Positions 1-5,322 of a stretch of 64,000 bases of DNA are shown here, in pieces. Below the pieces are notes generated by a model, which saw only the letters and a list, made by a program, of their open reading frames with translations, did no database searches and was not told the DNA's origin. Position 1 is the first letter of the stretch, and every line of letters starts with the position of its first letter. Source of the DNA: Chromatiaceae bacterium (GTDB taxonomy: Bacteria; Pseudomonadota; Gammaproteobacteria; Chromatiales; Chromatiaceae). The translations under genes were made by a program, and so were the position numbers. Location of the stretch: contig JALSSC010000011.1 in NCBI GenBank assembly GCA_026984455.1, positions 1 to 64,000 of the forward strand, written 5' to 3'.

Positions 1-555
1 TACTTGTCCGACGACGAGCGCGAGGCCCTGTTGGCCGCCTGCCGTGAATCACTCAACCCCTGGTTGTACACCGCCGTCGTCGTGGCCCTGTCCACCGGGA
101 TGCGGCAATCGGAATTGATGTGGTTGAGATGGCGCGACGTGGATCTGGACGGGGGCCGGATCGTCCTGCACGAGACCAAAAACGGCGAACGGCGGGCGGT
201 GCCCCTGACCGGCCCCGCCCTGGCGTTGCTGCGCGAGCACTCGAAGGCACGACGGACGGATGCGGACCTGCTGTTCCCCGGCCGCCGCAAGGACCGGCCC
301 ATCGAACTGCGCGTCCCCTGGATGGCGGCACTGAAACGCGCCGGGATCGAGGATTTCCGCTGGCACGATTTGCGCCATTCAACAGCCTCATATCTGGCCA
401 TGAACGGCGCCACCCTGGCCGAGATAGCCGAGGTCCTGGGGCATAAGACCCTGGCCATGGTGAAGCGCTACGCCCACCTGAGCGAGGCCCATACGGCATC
501 CGTGGTGGAACGGATGAATCGGCGGATATTCGGGGGCGGCCATGGACAGGAGTGA
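1..555 (+). CDS. Tyrosine recombinase (phage integrase family), C-terminal catalytic part
   Basis: The reading frame is open from the first base, so the N-terminal arm-binding and core-binding parts lie to the left of the window. What is visible is the whole catalytic domain: Arg in STGMRQSEL, Lys in ETKNGERR, the His-x-x-Arg box in WHDLRHS, the second His in LGHKT, and the nucleophilic Tyr in VKRYAHL. All catalytic positions are intact, so the enzyme looks active. It should catalyse integration and excision of the island at the tRNA-Thr site whose 3' copy is at 5245-5292. The stop codon overlaps the next gene by 14 nt, suggesting co-transcription. Confidence 0.93.
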   Translation, partial: YLSDDEREALLAACRESLNPWLYTAVVVALSTGMRQSELMWLRWRDVDLDGGRIVLHETKNGERRAVPLTGPALALLREHSKARRTDADLLFPGRRKDRPIELRVPWMAALKRAGIEDFRWHDLRHSTASYLAMNGATLAEIAEVLGHKTLAMVKRYAHLSEAHTASVVERMNRRIFGGGHGQE

Positions 556-1066: not shown

Positions 1067-1309
1067 ATGCATTACATCGACGACACCACCGCCACCGCAC
1101 CCACCACCCCGCCGCCGTCAAGGATCTTGCTTTCTGTAAAGCAACTTGTCGCCGAACAGCCCGCACTGACGACCGGGAGCATCAGGTGGCAACTCTTCAA
1201 CCGGAAGGCAAACGGTCTCGCAGAATCGGGAGCGATAATTAAACGCGGGTCCCGAATTCTCATTGACCGGGAGAAATACCTTGACTGGTTGGCCGAGGAG
1301 TCACGGTAA
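1067..1309 (+). CDS. Small excisionase/AlpA-like DNA-binding protein
   Basis: The frame stays open upstream to 971, but the ATG at 1067 is preferred because a GAGG ribosome-binding site sits 9 nt before it. The product is 80 residues: a Thr/Pro-rich N-terminus, then a compact winged-helix-like segment reading SVKQLVAEQPALTTGSIRW, a basic middle (FNRKANG), and IIKRGSRILIDREKYLDWL. The order of sensor helix, recognition helix, beta-wing with R-I-L-I, then terminal helix is the layout of MerR-superfamily Xis/AlpA proteins. In satellites such proteins direct excision or activate the replication genes. The stop overlaps the start of the primase gene (TAATG). Confidence 0.72.
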   Translation: MHYIDDTTATAPTTPPPSRILLSVKQLVAEQPALTTGSIRWQLFNRKANGLAESGAIIKRGSRILIDREKYLDWLAEESR

Positions 1310-1881
1310 TGGACTTCAACACTGCAAAAGCAGCTGCCGCCGGTCGCTGGCCATCGATCTGGAAGGCCCTTGGCGTCGGGGAAGTCCCACCTCTGGGCCG
1401 GCACGGGCCGTGTCCGGGATGCCGGGGCCGGGACCGTTTTCGTCTTCTGCCGCAAGAACTGGAAGATGGGGGTTGGGTCTGCGGACAAGGCGGTGCGCCA
1501 ACCGGTGGTGACGGATTCGGCTTGCTTGTCCATTGCGGCATTGCTCGCACCCCTGGCGAGGCCCTGCGCCTCGTTGCCGCCTATCTGGGACTCGACACCA
1601 AGGCCGACCCGGCAGCCCGCCAACGGGCACGAGAGGCCGCCCAGCGCCGTGATAGGGAACGCCTAGAAACCGCCCTGGCCCACGAGCTTGTTGTTTTATT
1701 AACCGTGTTGGACGCACGCCTCGCCGGCCGCGAGGTCGCGCGAGACCGACGTTTCCGCGAGGCCCGGCCCGAGTGGCTGCCGCTGCCCGGGGAACACTGG
1801 GAGCGCGAAACGCTGGCCGCCCGCCGGGTGGTGGCCCTGGCGGGCAGGCTCTACCCACCGAACAGGAGGGCCGCCGCATGA
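1309..1881 (+). CDS. Phage/satellite-type primase zinc-binding protein
   Basis: A 190-residue protein whose ATG overlaps the preceding stop codon. Residues about 30-75 form a CHC2-like zinc finger: CPGCRGRDRFRL, then GGWVC followed by a Gly-rich stretch and GGDGFGLL. This matches the zinc-ribbon plus downstream Leu pattern of P4-alpha-type primases, although the fourth ligand is less clear than usual (VCGQGG rather than CxxC). The C-terminal half is Arg/Ala-rich and helical. No Toprim catalytic domain is visible, so primer synthesis, if any, must depend on the next protein or a host enzyme. The stop overlaps the start of the DUF927 gene by 4 nt. Confidence 0.78.
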   Translation: MDFNTAKAAAAGRWPSIWKALGVGEVPPLGRHGPCPGCRGRDRFRLLPQELEDGGWVCGQGGAPTGGDGFGLLVHCGIARTPGEALRLVAAYLGLDTKADPAARQRAREAAQRRDRERLETALAHELVVLLTVLDARLAGREVARDRRFREARPEWLPLPGEHWERETLAARRVVALAGRLYPPNRRAAA

Positions 1882-3749
1882 GTGCCGCCGAAGACCTGGA
1901 AAAGACCCTCGCGGCCATCGACGCCGAGCTGGGCATCGACGCGCCCGACGACGACACCCCCGAGCCCTGGGCTTGGGTGGACGGCACTGAATGGCGGCAA
2001 CCGCCCGAGAGCGGCACCGAAATTCGGCACGCCCCGCCGGAAGACGACGATCGCCCGCGCTGGTGCTGCTATCTGAAGCCCAATCCGGAAGCCGGCATCC
2101 GCCGGGCTGGCGTCTGGTATCACGGCCTGAAACAGGGCAAGAAGGACGAGCCGCCCCAGCCCGTCGACGAGTGGCTTTGCTCCCCCCTGCTGGTTGAGGC
2201 CGTCACCCGCACCCCCGAGGGGAGCGACTTCGGCCGGCTGCTGCGTTTCCAGGTGGAGGGGCGATGGCGCATCTGGAACATGCCCATGCGCTTACTGGGA
2301 GGTGATCCGGCCGAGCTGCGCCGCGAGCTGCTAGCCGCTGGCGTGGAGATGGACCACCGCAACCCGCGCCGCGTGTTCGACTACCTCACCAGCCTGACGC
2401 CGCGCCGCCACATTCATGCCGCATTGGAGGTGGGGTGGCACGGCGCAGCCTTCGTCCTGCCCGATCGCGTCTTTGGTGAGGCGGAAATTCACTTCCAATC
2501 TGAAAGCGCCCTGGTGGCTGACTACGCCGCCGCAAGCACCCTGCAAACCTGGCAGGACCGTATCGCCCGCCCCGCGATCCGCAATAAGCCGCTGGTTTTT
2601 GCCATCAGCGCCGCCCTGGCTGGTCCCTTGCTGCATCCCGTGCACAAGCAAGGCGCGGGCTTTCACCTCATGGGCGGCAGTTCCTGCGGAAAGACCACTA
2701 CCCTCCAGGCCGCCGCCAGCGTCTGGGGGCCGCCACCGCTGGTGCGCAACTGGCGCGCAACCGCGAACGGGCTGGAAGCGGCCGCCGCCGAGGCCAATGA
2801 CCTGTGTCTGATCCTGGACGAAATCGGCGAGTGCACCCCCAAGGACGTGGGCAGGGTGGTGTACGCAATGGGCAACGGCACCGGCAAAATCCGTGCCACG
2901 CAAAAGGGCTACGCCCGCCGTGTCCGCCGCTGGCGGACTGTGCTGATCTCTAGTGGGGAAAAAACCCTCGACAGCATCCTGCGCGAGGCTGGGGAGCGCG
3001 TTACCGCCGGCCAGGACGTGCGGCTGCTGTCTCTTCCCGCCGACGGCTTCGCGCATGGGGTTTTCGATGAACTACACGGCCATGCCAACGGTGCCGACCT
3101 TGCCAACGCCATCAAGACCGCGGCCAGCGAGACCTACGGCACCGCCGGCCGCGCCTGGCTGACCTGGCTGGCCGACCACCTGGCCGCCCCCTGGGCCGAC
3201 ACCCTGCGCCGCATGGCTGACAGCCTGCAGCCCGAGAACGGACAGGAGGCCCGCGCCGCCGAGGCCTTCGCCCTGGTGGCGATGGCCGGAGAGAAGGCGA
3301 TCGAGGCTGGCATCCTGCCATGGGAGACAGGCGAGGCCGTCGCCGCTGTGCGCGAGATGTGGGAGCGCTGGCGCGAACAGCGCGGCCAAGGCCCCGCCGA
3401 GCTGCGCCAGGTGGTGGAGGCCCTGTCCGGCTTCATCGCCCGCTACGAGGCCCGCTTCGAGGACCGCGACTATCCCACCGACCGCCCCATCCACGACCGG
3501 GCCGGGTACATCAAGGACGGCGACTTCCATTTTATCCCCGCTGTGTTCAAGGAGGCCATCGGCGGCATGGACGCCAACCTTGCCAAACGTTTGCTATTTG
3601 AAGCCGGCTATCTGGCTGCAGGGGATGGCAAGCACCTGGGCCGGAATCTATGGGTAGGGAAGCGCACTCAGCGAGTCGTTAGCGTGCGCGCCGACATTCT
3701 TGACGGTGAAATGGGTGGGAAGAGTGGGAAGGGTGGGAATGTCGTTTGA
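1878..3749 (+). CDS. DUF927-domain helicase/primase-like ATPase
   Basis: Start ATG 1878 is chosen because a perfect AGGAGGG lies 7 nt upstream; the frame itself is open further left. The 623-residue product has an acidic N-terminus, then a DUF927 ATPase core: Walker A GGSSCGKTTTLQ near residue 270 and Walker B LCLILDEIGE near residue 310. The next conserved stretch includes GTGKIRATQKG. DUF927 proteins sit in phage and plasmid replication modules and are regarded as superfamily helicase/primase components. Here the gene directly follows the zinc-finger primase and its 3' end runs into the iteron array, so it is the likely replication initiator or helicase of the island. It is full length with no disrupted motif. 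Confidence 0.88.
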   Translation: MSAAEDLEKTLAAIDAELGIDAPDDDTPEPWAWVDGTEWRQPPESGTEIRHAPPEDDDRPRWCCYLKPNPEAGIRRAGVWYHGLKQGKKDEPPQPVDEWLCSPLLVEAVTRTPEGSDFGRLLRFQVEGRWRIWNMPMRLLGGDPAELRRELLAAGVEMDHRNPRRVFDYLTSLTPRRHIHAALEVGWHGAAFVLPDRVFGEAEIHFQSESALVADYAAASTLQTWQDRIARPAIRNKPLVFAISAALAGPLLHPVHKQGAGFHLMGGSSCGKTTTLQAAASVWGPPPLVRNWRATANGLEAAAAEANDLCLILDEIGECTPKDVGRVVYAMGNGTGKIRATQKGYARRVRRWRTVLISSGEKTLDSILREAGERVTAGQDVRLLSLPADGFAHGVFDELHGHANGADLANAIKTAASETYGTAGRAWLTWLADHLAAPWADTLRRMADSLQPENGQEARAAEAFALVAMAGEKAIEAGILPWETGEAVAAVREMWERWREQRGQGPAELRQVVEALSGFIARYEARFEDRDYPTDRPIHDRAGYIKDGDFHFIPAVFKEAIGGMDANLAKRLLFEAGYLAAGDGKHLGRNLWVGKRTQRVVSVRADILDGEMGGKSGKGGNVV

Positions 3750-3921
3750 TAATCAATGTGTTGCGGCATTCCCACCCCCTTGCAAGAGGTGGGAAGGGGT
3801 GGGAAGGGAATCCCCGCGCCATGAGCCGCCTTCCCACCCCTTCCCACCTTCCCAGCACAGGTGGGAAGGCTGTAAGCGATTGATATGCAAAGAGTCTTCC
3901 CACCCTTCCCACCATTCCCAC
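3715..3921. repeat. Mirror-symmetric array of 12 GTGGGAA iterons, candidate replication origin
   Basis: Six direct copies of GTGGGAA start at 3715, 3724, 3733, 3789, 3799 and 3861. Six inverted copies (TTCCCAC) start at 3769, 3831, 3841, 3897, 3906 and 3915. Every copy has an exactly placed mirror partner about base 3818, giving the order +++ - ++ -- + ---. Neighbouring copies are 9 or 10 bp apart, about one helical turn. Two less GC-rich gaps (about 3740-3768 and 3868-3896) are partly complementary to each other. The first three copies lie inside the end of the DUF927 gene. Position beside primase and helicase genes, iteron spacing and dyad symmetry suggest an origin bound by an island-encoded initiator. 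Function is inferred; the repeat positions are read directly. Confidence 0.85.
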
Positions 3922-3975
3922 CGTCTGAACCGGCTCCAAAGCAAAAACACAGAGAACACACGGAGAACGCACGCC

Positions 3976-4605
3976 ATGAGCGCACTTCAACCCCTTATCG
4001 AACAGGGTTTCCCCGCCCACCTGGCCGAACAGATAACGGCCGAGATCCTGGACCAGTACGGGGAGGAACCGTGCACTAGGGAGCAGGCCGCCGCCCACGA
4101 GGCCGGGCATTGGGTGGTCGGCGACACCCTAGGCCTGGCCCCCTACCGCTGGTTGCGGGTGTTTCGAGAGCGCGGCAAGTGGCTGGGCGAAAACATCGAG
4201 GTGAGCCCGGTCTCGGCCAACATCTTTGAAGACCCAGACAGGTACAGGGTTACCGCCCTTCAGGTGATCGCTGGCTTTATTGGTGAGGCGGCTGCTGGGC
4301 ACTTCCATCCGTCATCGAGCATCGACGAGCGCATCAGGCTGGAAGCGAGTTGTGCTGGCTTGTCTCAACTGTATGGCGGCCGGCCAGAGGCCCTGTTAGC
4401 GGGCGCCATGGTGACTGTCGCAGAGATCATCCAGGCCCGACAGGATGACTTCTACCTGGTGCGCCGCCACTTGGAGAGAGAACGCCGCATCCTGCGCCCA
4501 CGACTGGATGCCCTGAGCCGACCAAACCGAGACACCTGGTTGCTTCGGTGGGATCGGTTGAGCCATGGAATTGAACAGCGAGGCCGCCGGCTGGGACATG
4601 GATGA
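3976..4605 (+). CDS. HEAGH zinc-metalloprotease-like protein (peptidase M41-like)
   Basis: A 209-residue protein starting at ATG 3976 with GGAGA 9 nt upstream. The open frame extends back through the iteron array to 3700, but that part is low-complexity repeat translation and is excluded. Residues 37-48 read EQAAAHEAGHWV, an HExxH zinc-binding site of the HEAGH type typical of FtsH (M41) proteases. No AAA+ domain or membrane segment accompanies it. The rest is helical, ending Arg-rich. Stand-alone M41-like domains occur in phage-related islands, but their substrates are not known to me. The gene sits between the candidate origin and the terminase small subunit gene. It could act on a host or helper-phage protein; this is speculation. 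Confidence 0.7.
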   Translation: MSALQPLIEQGFPAHLAEQITAEILDQYGEEPCTREQAAAHEAGHWVVGDTLGLAPYRWLRVFRERGKWLGENIEVSPVSANIFEDPDRYRVTALQVIAGFIGEAAAGHFHPSSSIDERIRLEASCAGLSQLYGGRPEALLAGAMVTVAEIIQARQDDFYLVRRHLERERRILRPRLDALSRPNRDTWLLRWDRLSHGIEQRGRRLGHG

Positions 4606-4711
4606 GGCCCGGGATAGGGCGAGAGCGACGGAGCGCAGAGAGTTCGAGGCCGGGTTGGCCGCCGAACGTGTGGACACTTCACGGGACATATCGGAGCGCA
4701 CTAATGGGTAA
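4565..4711 (+). CDS. Possible 48-residue acidic/basic small protein
   Basis: A short frame begins at ATG 4565 inside the end of the metalloprotease-like gene (a second ATG lies at 4598) and ends at 4711, overlapping the start of the terminase small subunit by 8 nt. The product is highly charged (for example DMDEARDRARATERREFEAG) and would be one long helix. The chained overlaps fit the tight packing of this operon. No strong ribosome-binding site is seen and no family is recognised, so it may be a chance frame. Confidence 0.35.
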   Translation: MELNSEAAGWDMDEARDRARATERREFEAGLAAERVDTSRDISERTNG

Positions 4712-5108
4712 GTTGACACTAAAGCAGGAGGCTTTCGTTCAGGCCTACATGAATTGTGGGAATGCGAGTGAGGCGTACCGGCAGGCTTACGATGCGTCCC
4801 GGATGAAGCCGGAGACCGTCAGCAGAAAGGCGGCGGAACTGCTAAGGAACGGCAAAGTTACGGCAAGGCTGGACGCCCTACGCGCCGAACTCGCCGACCG
4901 GCACCTGTGGACCCGTGAACAGTCCGTGAAGGCTTTGACCAAGGTGATCGAGGACCCGGACCGACAGGCCGACGTGATCGCGGCGGTGCGGGCACTCAAT
5001 GAAATGCATGGATACAACGCGCCGGCCAAACGGGAGATCACGGGCCCGGGTGGCCAGCCGACCACCACCCGAATCGTGATCGACTGGGGGGACGATAACG
5101 ACGCATAA
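4704..5108 (+). CDS. Phage terminase small subunit (TerS, Terminase_2 family)
   Basis: Start ATG 4704 has GGAG 7 nt upstream and fits the family start. The 134-residue protein opens with LTLKQEAFVQAYMNCGNASE, continues AYRQAYD, then METVSRKAAELL-like spacing in MKPETVSRKAAELLRNGKV. This is the DNA-binding helix-turn-helix of Terminase_2 small subunits. The C-terminal part (ALNEMHGYNAPAKREITG) is the usual oligomerisation and tail region. TerS recognises the pac site and feeds DNA to the large subunit. No large subunit or structural gene follows, so a helper phage would have to supply them. This is the last gene of the island before the attachment site. Confidence 0.88.
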   Translation: MGKLTLKQEAFVQAYMNCGNASEAYRQAYDASRMKPETVSRKAAELLRNGKVTARLDALRAELADRHLWTREQSVKALTKVIEDPDRQADVIAAVRALNEMHGYNAPAKREITGPGGQPTTTRIVIDWGDDNDA

Positions 5109-5244: not shown

Positions 5245-5292
5245 GGATTTGTAATCCGCAGGTCCAGGGTTCGAATCCCTGCGCCAGCTCCA
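5245..5292 (+). other. attR-like site: 3' part of a tRNA-Thr(UGU) gene
   Basis: From the anticodon arm onward the sequence is a proper tRNA: loop TTTGTAA with anticodon TGT, variable loop AGGTC, a T arm with CAGGG and CCCTG around TTCGAAT, the 3' acceptor strand CGCCAGC, discriminator T and encoded CCA. Upstream there is no D arm and no 5' acceptor strand. The 5' half of the anticodon stem pairs only over its inner three bases. It is therefore a fragment, not a working gene. Such 3' tRNA copies are the usual mark of tyrosine-recombinase integration, with the intact tRNA at the other end of the element. Confidence 0.85.
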
Positions 5293-5322
5293 TCTTCCGC
5301 TTCCCATTTCAGGTATGTCTTG

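Follow-up and report, generated by a model that had tools for sequence, protein, structure and literature searches.

In a Chromatiaceae bacterium, twelve copies of a seven-nucleotide repeat are mirrored about a single base at the end of a DUF927 gene, which raises the question of what such an arrangement is for. By the window we mean the whole 64,000-nucleotide stretch that was analysed (contig JALSSC010000011.1). The original prediction, made from this stretch, had proposed an initiator-bound origin beside the replication genes of an island.

The island and its mirrored array

The genes around the array run in the order integrase, two small genes, zinc-ribbon primase, DUF927, array, a gene of unknown function, terminase small subunit (TerS) and a tRNA end; the annotated features are as follows.

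4..555, + strand: tyrosine integrase, truncated by the contig end
971..1309, + strand: small protein, possibly an excisionase-like DNA-binding protein (weak match, E=0.059)
1309..1881, + strand: Zn_Ribbon_Prim, zinc-binding primase part
1878..3749, + strand: DUF927 initiator-helicase gene, SaPI Rep / Cch family
3976..4605, + strand: protein of unknown function, found in the Sedimenticola relative too
4602..5108, + strand: terminase small subunit (Terminase_2)
5255..5293, + strand: tRNA 3′ end without a remaining gene, the putative right attachment site

PICIs carry int at one end, followed by a replication module and then ori, sometimes with terS (PMC6092414). The element in the window has an integrase with a putative attachment site, a primase with a rep gene, an array in the place of the origin after rep, and the terS that PICIs often hold; by gene order it looks like a PICI-type phage satellite. 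Its left end is missing because the contig begins inside int. A search of the assembly for an intact tRNA or a left attachment site found neither, and the tRNA-end sequence occurs once, so that the left end of the island would lie in unassembled sequence.

The array occupies 207 bp (3715-3921) and comprises 12 exact GTGGGAA sites, six per strand. Sites on the + strand start at 3715, 3724, 3733, 3789, 3799 and 3861, and those on the - strand at 3769, 3831, 3841, 3897, 3906 and 3915; the order is +++ - ++ -- + ---, with spacings of 9, 9, 36, 20, 10, 32, 10, 20, 36, 9 and 9. Start and end add up to 7636 in all six mirror pairs, which places the dyad axis at 3818. The original prediction had described 12 sites mirrored about this base, phased by 9 or 10 bp, interrupted by two less GC-rich gaps and overlapping the 3′ end of the DUF927 gene, and the measurements bear out each of these points: the phasing is as measured above, the two long gaps have 41% and 45% GC against 76% at the centre (3806-3830), and the first three sites, the only ones translated, fall within the last codons of the DUF927 frame before its stop at 3747-3749. 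A 13th near-copy, TTCCCAG at 3849-3855, has no mirror partner. The parts of the array, with A and B denoting the inner and outer tandems, are listed below.

3715..3739, + strand: left outer tandem (B), three GTGGGAA with 9-bp phase, in the last DUF927 codons
3769..3775, - strand: left single inverted iteron
3789..3805, + strand: left inner tandem (A), two GTGGGAA with 10-bp phase
3806..3830, no strand: compact dyad centre, 76% GC, sequence not symmetric
3831..3847, - strand: right inner tandem (A), two sites
3861..3867, + strand: right single inverted iteron
3897..3921, - strand: right outer tandem (B), three sites
3922..3975, no strand: flank past the right B, with TCTGAACCGGCTCCAAAGCAAA, a candidate unwinding or priming region

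Six exact mirror pairs arose in 4 of 100,000 shuffles that kept gaps and strand counts, and in none of 100,000 random placements. Counting GTGGGAA across the window gave 17 copies against 8.1 expected. Tandem GGTGGGAA pairs matched five times in the 2.83-Mb assembly, always at the array (control 0), and the 241-bp array stretch had no match other than itself and its reverse complement; the occurrence of the repeat at many unrelated loci, which the original prediction had named as counting against it, was not seen, the tandem repeat being single-locus in this assembly. Identity between the arms is high at the sites only (24/27 and 29/41) and drops to 15/29 for the gaps and to 2/10 for the centre. 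Since the arms have diverged outside the sites, it is the site positions that are kept, and not a palindrome as such.

An iteron module in DUF927 relatives

The DUF927 Pfam family matches the open reading frame at 262 bits (E=8e-78, residues 111-385). Its AAA+ core with Walker motifs is present, and the GK and DE columns are invariant in the alignment of relatives. A profile built from 15 relatives aligns with 8TCH, the SaPI 'Pathogenicity island protein' (E=5e-41), and with 5DGK, which is Cch (E=2e-35). Both alignments cover the AAA+ core as well as the greater part of the C-terminal domain, ending at chain position 563 of 580 and position 540 of 603, respectively. Judged by this homology, the DUF927 protein is a member of the SaPI Rep/Cch family of self-loading helicases; an AlphaFold model made from two sequences reached a pLDDT of 35 and was set aside. 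Cch, which carries DUF927, is kin to SaPIbov1 Rep, and SaPI Rep uses its C-terminal domain to bind the iterons that directly follow its own gene, apparently as two hexamers (PMC7581432). In PICIs, ori comes straight after the 3′ end of rep and invariably has two iteron sets, and pri-rep-ori of EcCICFT073 supports autonomous replication (PMC6092414).

We sampled DUF927 relatives from the host family, order and class, as well as from plasmids and phages, and searched the 3′ end of each DUF927 gene with a blind 7-mer caller, taking the gene body as comparison. Arrays at the 3′ end were often stronger than those in the gene body, so the relatives do have arrays, a point on which the original prediction had staked itself. 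Their iterons differ in sequence (GTGGACA, GGTAACA, GGTGACA, TGGGACA, GGGAACC, GTGGGAC and others) and share a geometry. Followed in the direction of the iteron arrow, whose core is about TGTNNCC, this module consists of a tandem A, 20-25 bp, an inverted single site, 29-56 bp and a tandem B; each tandem has 2-3 sites, and the phase of tandem A is 9 bp. Of 73 loci, 34 have the module, where 3.4 would be expected from versions of these arrays with gaps and strands shuffled. Because it had been defined from these 73 loci, the definition was applied unchanged to 26 new ones, where it was found in 10 (1.15 expected); in both counts the loci come from related genomes and are not all independent. At many DUF927 loci no module could be recognized, and at many there is a single one. 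In three relatives (L064, L050 and L051) the DUF927 frame stays open across the iteron array, giving a repeat-encoded protein tail.

Mirror forms with six pairs recur with other iterons at L051 (GTGGACA), L021 (GGTGACA) and L094 (GTGGGAC), and further mirror forms are present in a Salmonella locus (L012) and in the SaPI-like PT1028 (L086). Two topologies can be told apart. In the convergent one B lies inside, with 97-105 bp between the two Bs (PT1028; Thermoanaerobacterium phage THSA-485A, L088; Skermanella pSR-7, L080), an arrangement in keeping with the published 'two sets flanking AT-rich region'. In the divergent one A lies inside and B outside a compact centre; this is the form of the window, where the centre is compact and GC-rich, and of L012, L021, L051, L064, L094, L096 and L097. 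Single modules occur at L017, L024, L033 and L037, and at L029 and L060 two modules follow one DUF927 gene in direct tandem, not mirrored. When IMG/VR was scanned with nothing but the motif, three tandem GTGGGAA, 50 contigs were returned. DUF927 was matched in the fetched flank of 14, and several of these 14 carry the same array just downstream of DUF927. Both topologies occur there with the GTGGGAA core, divergent at L127, L134 and L146 and convergent at L119 and L133. A scan of viral contigs for DUF927 by protein patterns found none.

Three IMG/VR contigs with no DUF927 match (L120, L155 and L158) hold GTGGGAA-core arrays beside VapE-type helicase genes, with a single-to-triple spacing of 35-36 bp. 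Given these neighbours, initiators of several families may use the module. That the layout recurs with other iterons across many related mobile elements makes it look like a common design rule, not an oddity, and the module rule together with the two topologies is what is new here; the text of the open-access papers searched contains no description of either.

The closest relative, from Sedimenticola (L010, 90% protein identity), has the right module with identical spacing and only the two inner sites of the left; its IHF site is degenerate, with 2 mismatches, and its DUF927 gene ends before the array. Full symmetry and IHF are thus not essential even in a near neighbour. Since distant relatives have the complete mirror, the comparison suggests that L010 lost its left arm, a direction read from this distribution and not from a tree. 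Recent inverted duplication of one arm is an unlikely origin of the symmetry in the window: the left and right gaps are identical at 15/29 positions, and the right gap matches that of L010 at about 17/29 (counted by eye), so that the left-right difference is equally large. The segment TCTGAACCGGCTCCAAAGCAAA beside the right tandem (3922-3945) is unchanged in L010, although the array interior has diverged.

IHF consensus sites and candidate unwinding elements

The original prediction overlooked a feature of the array that we add here: both long gaps contain a perfect IHF consensus, WATCAANNNNTTR, and the two are exact mirror partners.

3751..3763, + strand: perfect IHF consensus site AATCAATGTGTTG, left long gap (3740-3768)
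3873..3885, - strand: perfect IHF consensus site TATCAATCGCTTA, right long gap (3868-3896)

The window holds three perfect matches against 0.15 expected, and the host genome has a gene for IHF-alpha, above the family cut-off. Among the first set of relatives, nine long gaps carried a perfect consensus (0.1 expected), so that 9 of 18 matches fell within 1.7% of the sequence (p=6e-12). None was found in the 12 unique long gaps held out or in the 16 viral arrays examined, and we rejected IHF as a universal part of the module; with consensus sites in first-set gaps and none held out, the feature belongs to a subset, in which the window clearly falls.

An A/T run of at least 4 lies within 14 bp past tandem B in 22 of 38 modules (controls 8-9), and in 8 of 12 held-out modules (control 2). 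The window shows this weakly, with A5 some 20 bp past the right B and T3 past the left B, and no strong unwinding element is visible in its array. The distribution hints that unwinding begins past tandem B rather than in the gaps, the A/T run being a candidate unwinding element. Melting of the two gaps, as the original prediction had it, is unproved; the gaps of the window hold IHF consensus sites, and the A/T-richer stretch of relatives lies just past the outer tandem.

The long gaps have further motifs. A[AG]CC occurs near the single inverted iteron in 26 of 51 long gaps (6.2 expected) and CCTTG in 9 of 51 (0.4 expected), and at L033, L035, L044, L051 and L097, for example, the single iteron has a motif resembling AAACCC(TTG/GC) nearby. 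A hairpin in the long gap was rejected, predicted folds being no stronger than those of shuffles (mean z -0.23).

A probable two-module origin and its alternatives

Taken together, the array is very probably the replication origin of the satellite, bound by DUF927. This reading rests on the origins of SaPI Rep and Cch, which lie directly 3′ of the gene, and on the comparable arrays found there in relatives; the protein family and these arrays lend support to the initiator-bound origin of the original prediction. The helicase encoded just upstream would bind each iteron through its C-terminal domain, and the origin would be a head-to-head pair of identical modules. Along the TTCCCAC arrow, each module of the window comprises A (2 sites), about two helical turns, the inverted site, the long gap with its IHF consensus and B (3 sites). 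We infer that IHF, if bound, would bend the long gap such that B folds back on the single site and on A, and that one helicase ring would be loaded per module. As the modules face away from each other, the helicases would depart in opposite directions, giving bidirectional replication. These finer steps (bending of each long gap by IHF, one ring per module, bidirectional departure) are about as likely to hold as not.

Other functions can be imagined for a dense array in this place. Initiators often autoregulate, and the array sits between two genes that are seemingly co-transcribed, so it might be an operator through which a regulator or DUF927 itself controls the operon; its position 3′ of the initiator gene, away from the operon promoter, makes this very unlikely, and an operator would not need as much as twelve phased sites, arranged in a fixed module together with bend sites. 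TerS proteins bind repeated sites near their own gene and one is encoded 0.7 kb downstream, yet a packaging signal bound by this TerS is less likely still: in relatives the geometry tracks DUF927 genes, and the elements of Legionella plasmid III (L014), Salmonella (L012) and Skermanella pSR-7 (L080) have the array after DUF927 with no annotated TerS in the stretch examined.

The original prediction also offered a large cruciform. If the 207-nt dyad were extruded as a cruciform or hairpin, whether from supercoiled DNA or from single strands, this would agree with a strand fold of -71 kcal/mol (z=-11.6) that is far better than shuffles. Complementarity is confined to the binding sites, however, the gaps (15/29) and centre (2/10) having diverged; gap hairpins are no stronger than those of shuffles (mean z -0.23), relatives conserve the positions and strands of sites rather than spacer pairing, and the many relatives with one half only could not form the dyad at all. 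We rejected the cruciform as a conserved feature, and a structural role for the dyad is even more improbable than packaging. Least probable of all is an attachment or excision complex of arm-type integrase sites and IHF bends, which the IHF consensus sites in the gaps bring to mind because repeated sites plus IHF sites resemble the arms of phage lambda attP; the tRNA end at 5255-5293, the apparent attachment site, lies 1.3 kb from the array, and the small circular plasmid L014 has its array 3′ of DUF927 with no annotated integrase in the stretch examined.

The origin reading gains detail when the array is set beside known systems. With the PICI/SaPI origins of SaPIbov1 and EcCICFT073 it shares a position immediately 3′ of the Rep gene, two opposed sets of short iterons and an initiator helicase of the SaPI Rep (8TCH) / Cch (5DGK) family. 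The original prediction called a full dyad unusual, iteron origins being usually direct repeats; that a symmetric inverted layout would be foreign to origins of this kind is not borne out, two iteron sets being the rule in PICIs (PMC6092414). What is unusual is that the window has an inside-out, compact version of the two-set origin: PICI origins are described with an AT-rich centre, whereas that of the window is 25 bp long with 76% GC, A lies inside and B outside, and each long gap has an IHF consensus. For want of an AT-rich centre we call the array a variant of the PICI-type origin. The array of PT1028, a SaPI-like element of S. aureus with DUF927, has the same site order (3-1-2 / 2-1-3) in two mirror halves, 9-11 bp phasing, one inverted site per half and the same order of short and long spacings along the arrow; it differs in that its modules converge on a 97-bp AT-rich centre, A has three sites and B two, and the called gap has no IHF site. 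The SCCmec Cch2 origin likewise has iterons directly downstream of a self-loading initiator helicase, but only a few direct repeats and another helicase family (PMC7581432).

Iteron plasmids such as R6K, RK2 and pSC101 combine iterons with IHF sites at the origin; there the iterons repeat directly, and the winged-helix Rep proteins that bind them load DnaB. The window has inverted, mirrored sites and its own helicase, a DUF927 initiator in place of a Rep of the RepA/Pi/TrfA type.

On balance we favour a general origin module for the self-loading helicases of satellites and plasmids (DUF927, and VapE-type from three IMG/VR contigs), composed of A, 20-25 bp, an inverted site, a 29-56 bp bend gap, B and a short A/T run, with the iteron sequence free and the geometry fixed. 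Pairs would be convergent, with a centre of about 100 bp as in SaPI, or divergent, with a compact centre as in the window; single and tandem modules exist as well, which suggests that origins are assembled from an oriented loading unit. The array bears on how self-loading ring helicases are placed in pairs at origins, a question for MCM-like and SaPI-type initiators. The DNA of the array gives the geometry (the number of sites, their direction and the location of the presumed bend), and this geometry shows that one module can be alone, tandem, divergent or convergent. L010, with one and a half modules, and the one-module relatives are natural comparisons for the question of whether a module yields one ring and one fork, and the geometry would allow origins to be located where the iteron sequence is unknown.
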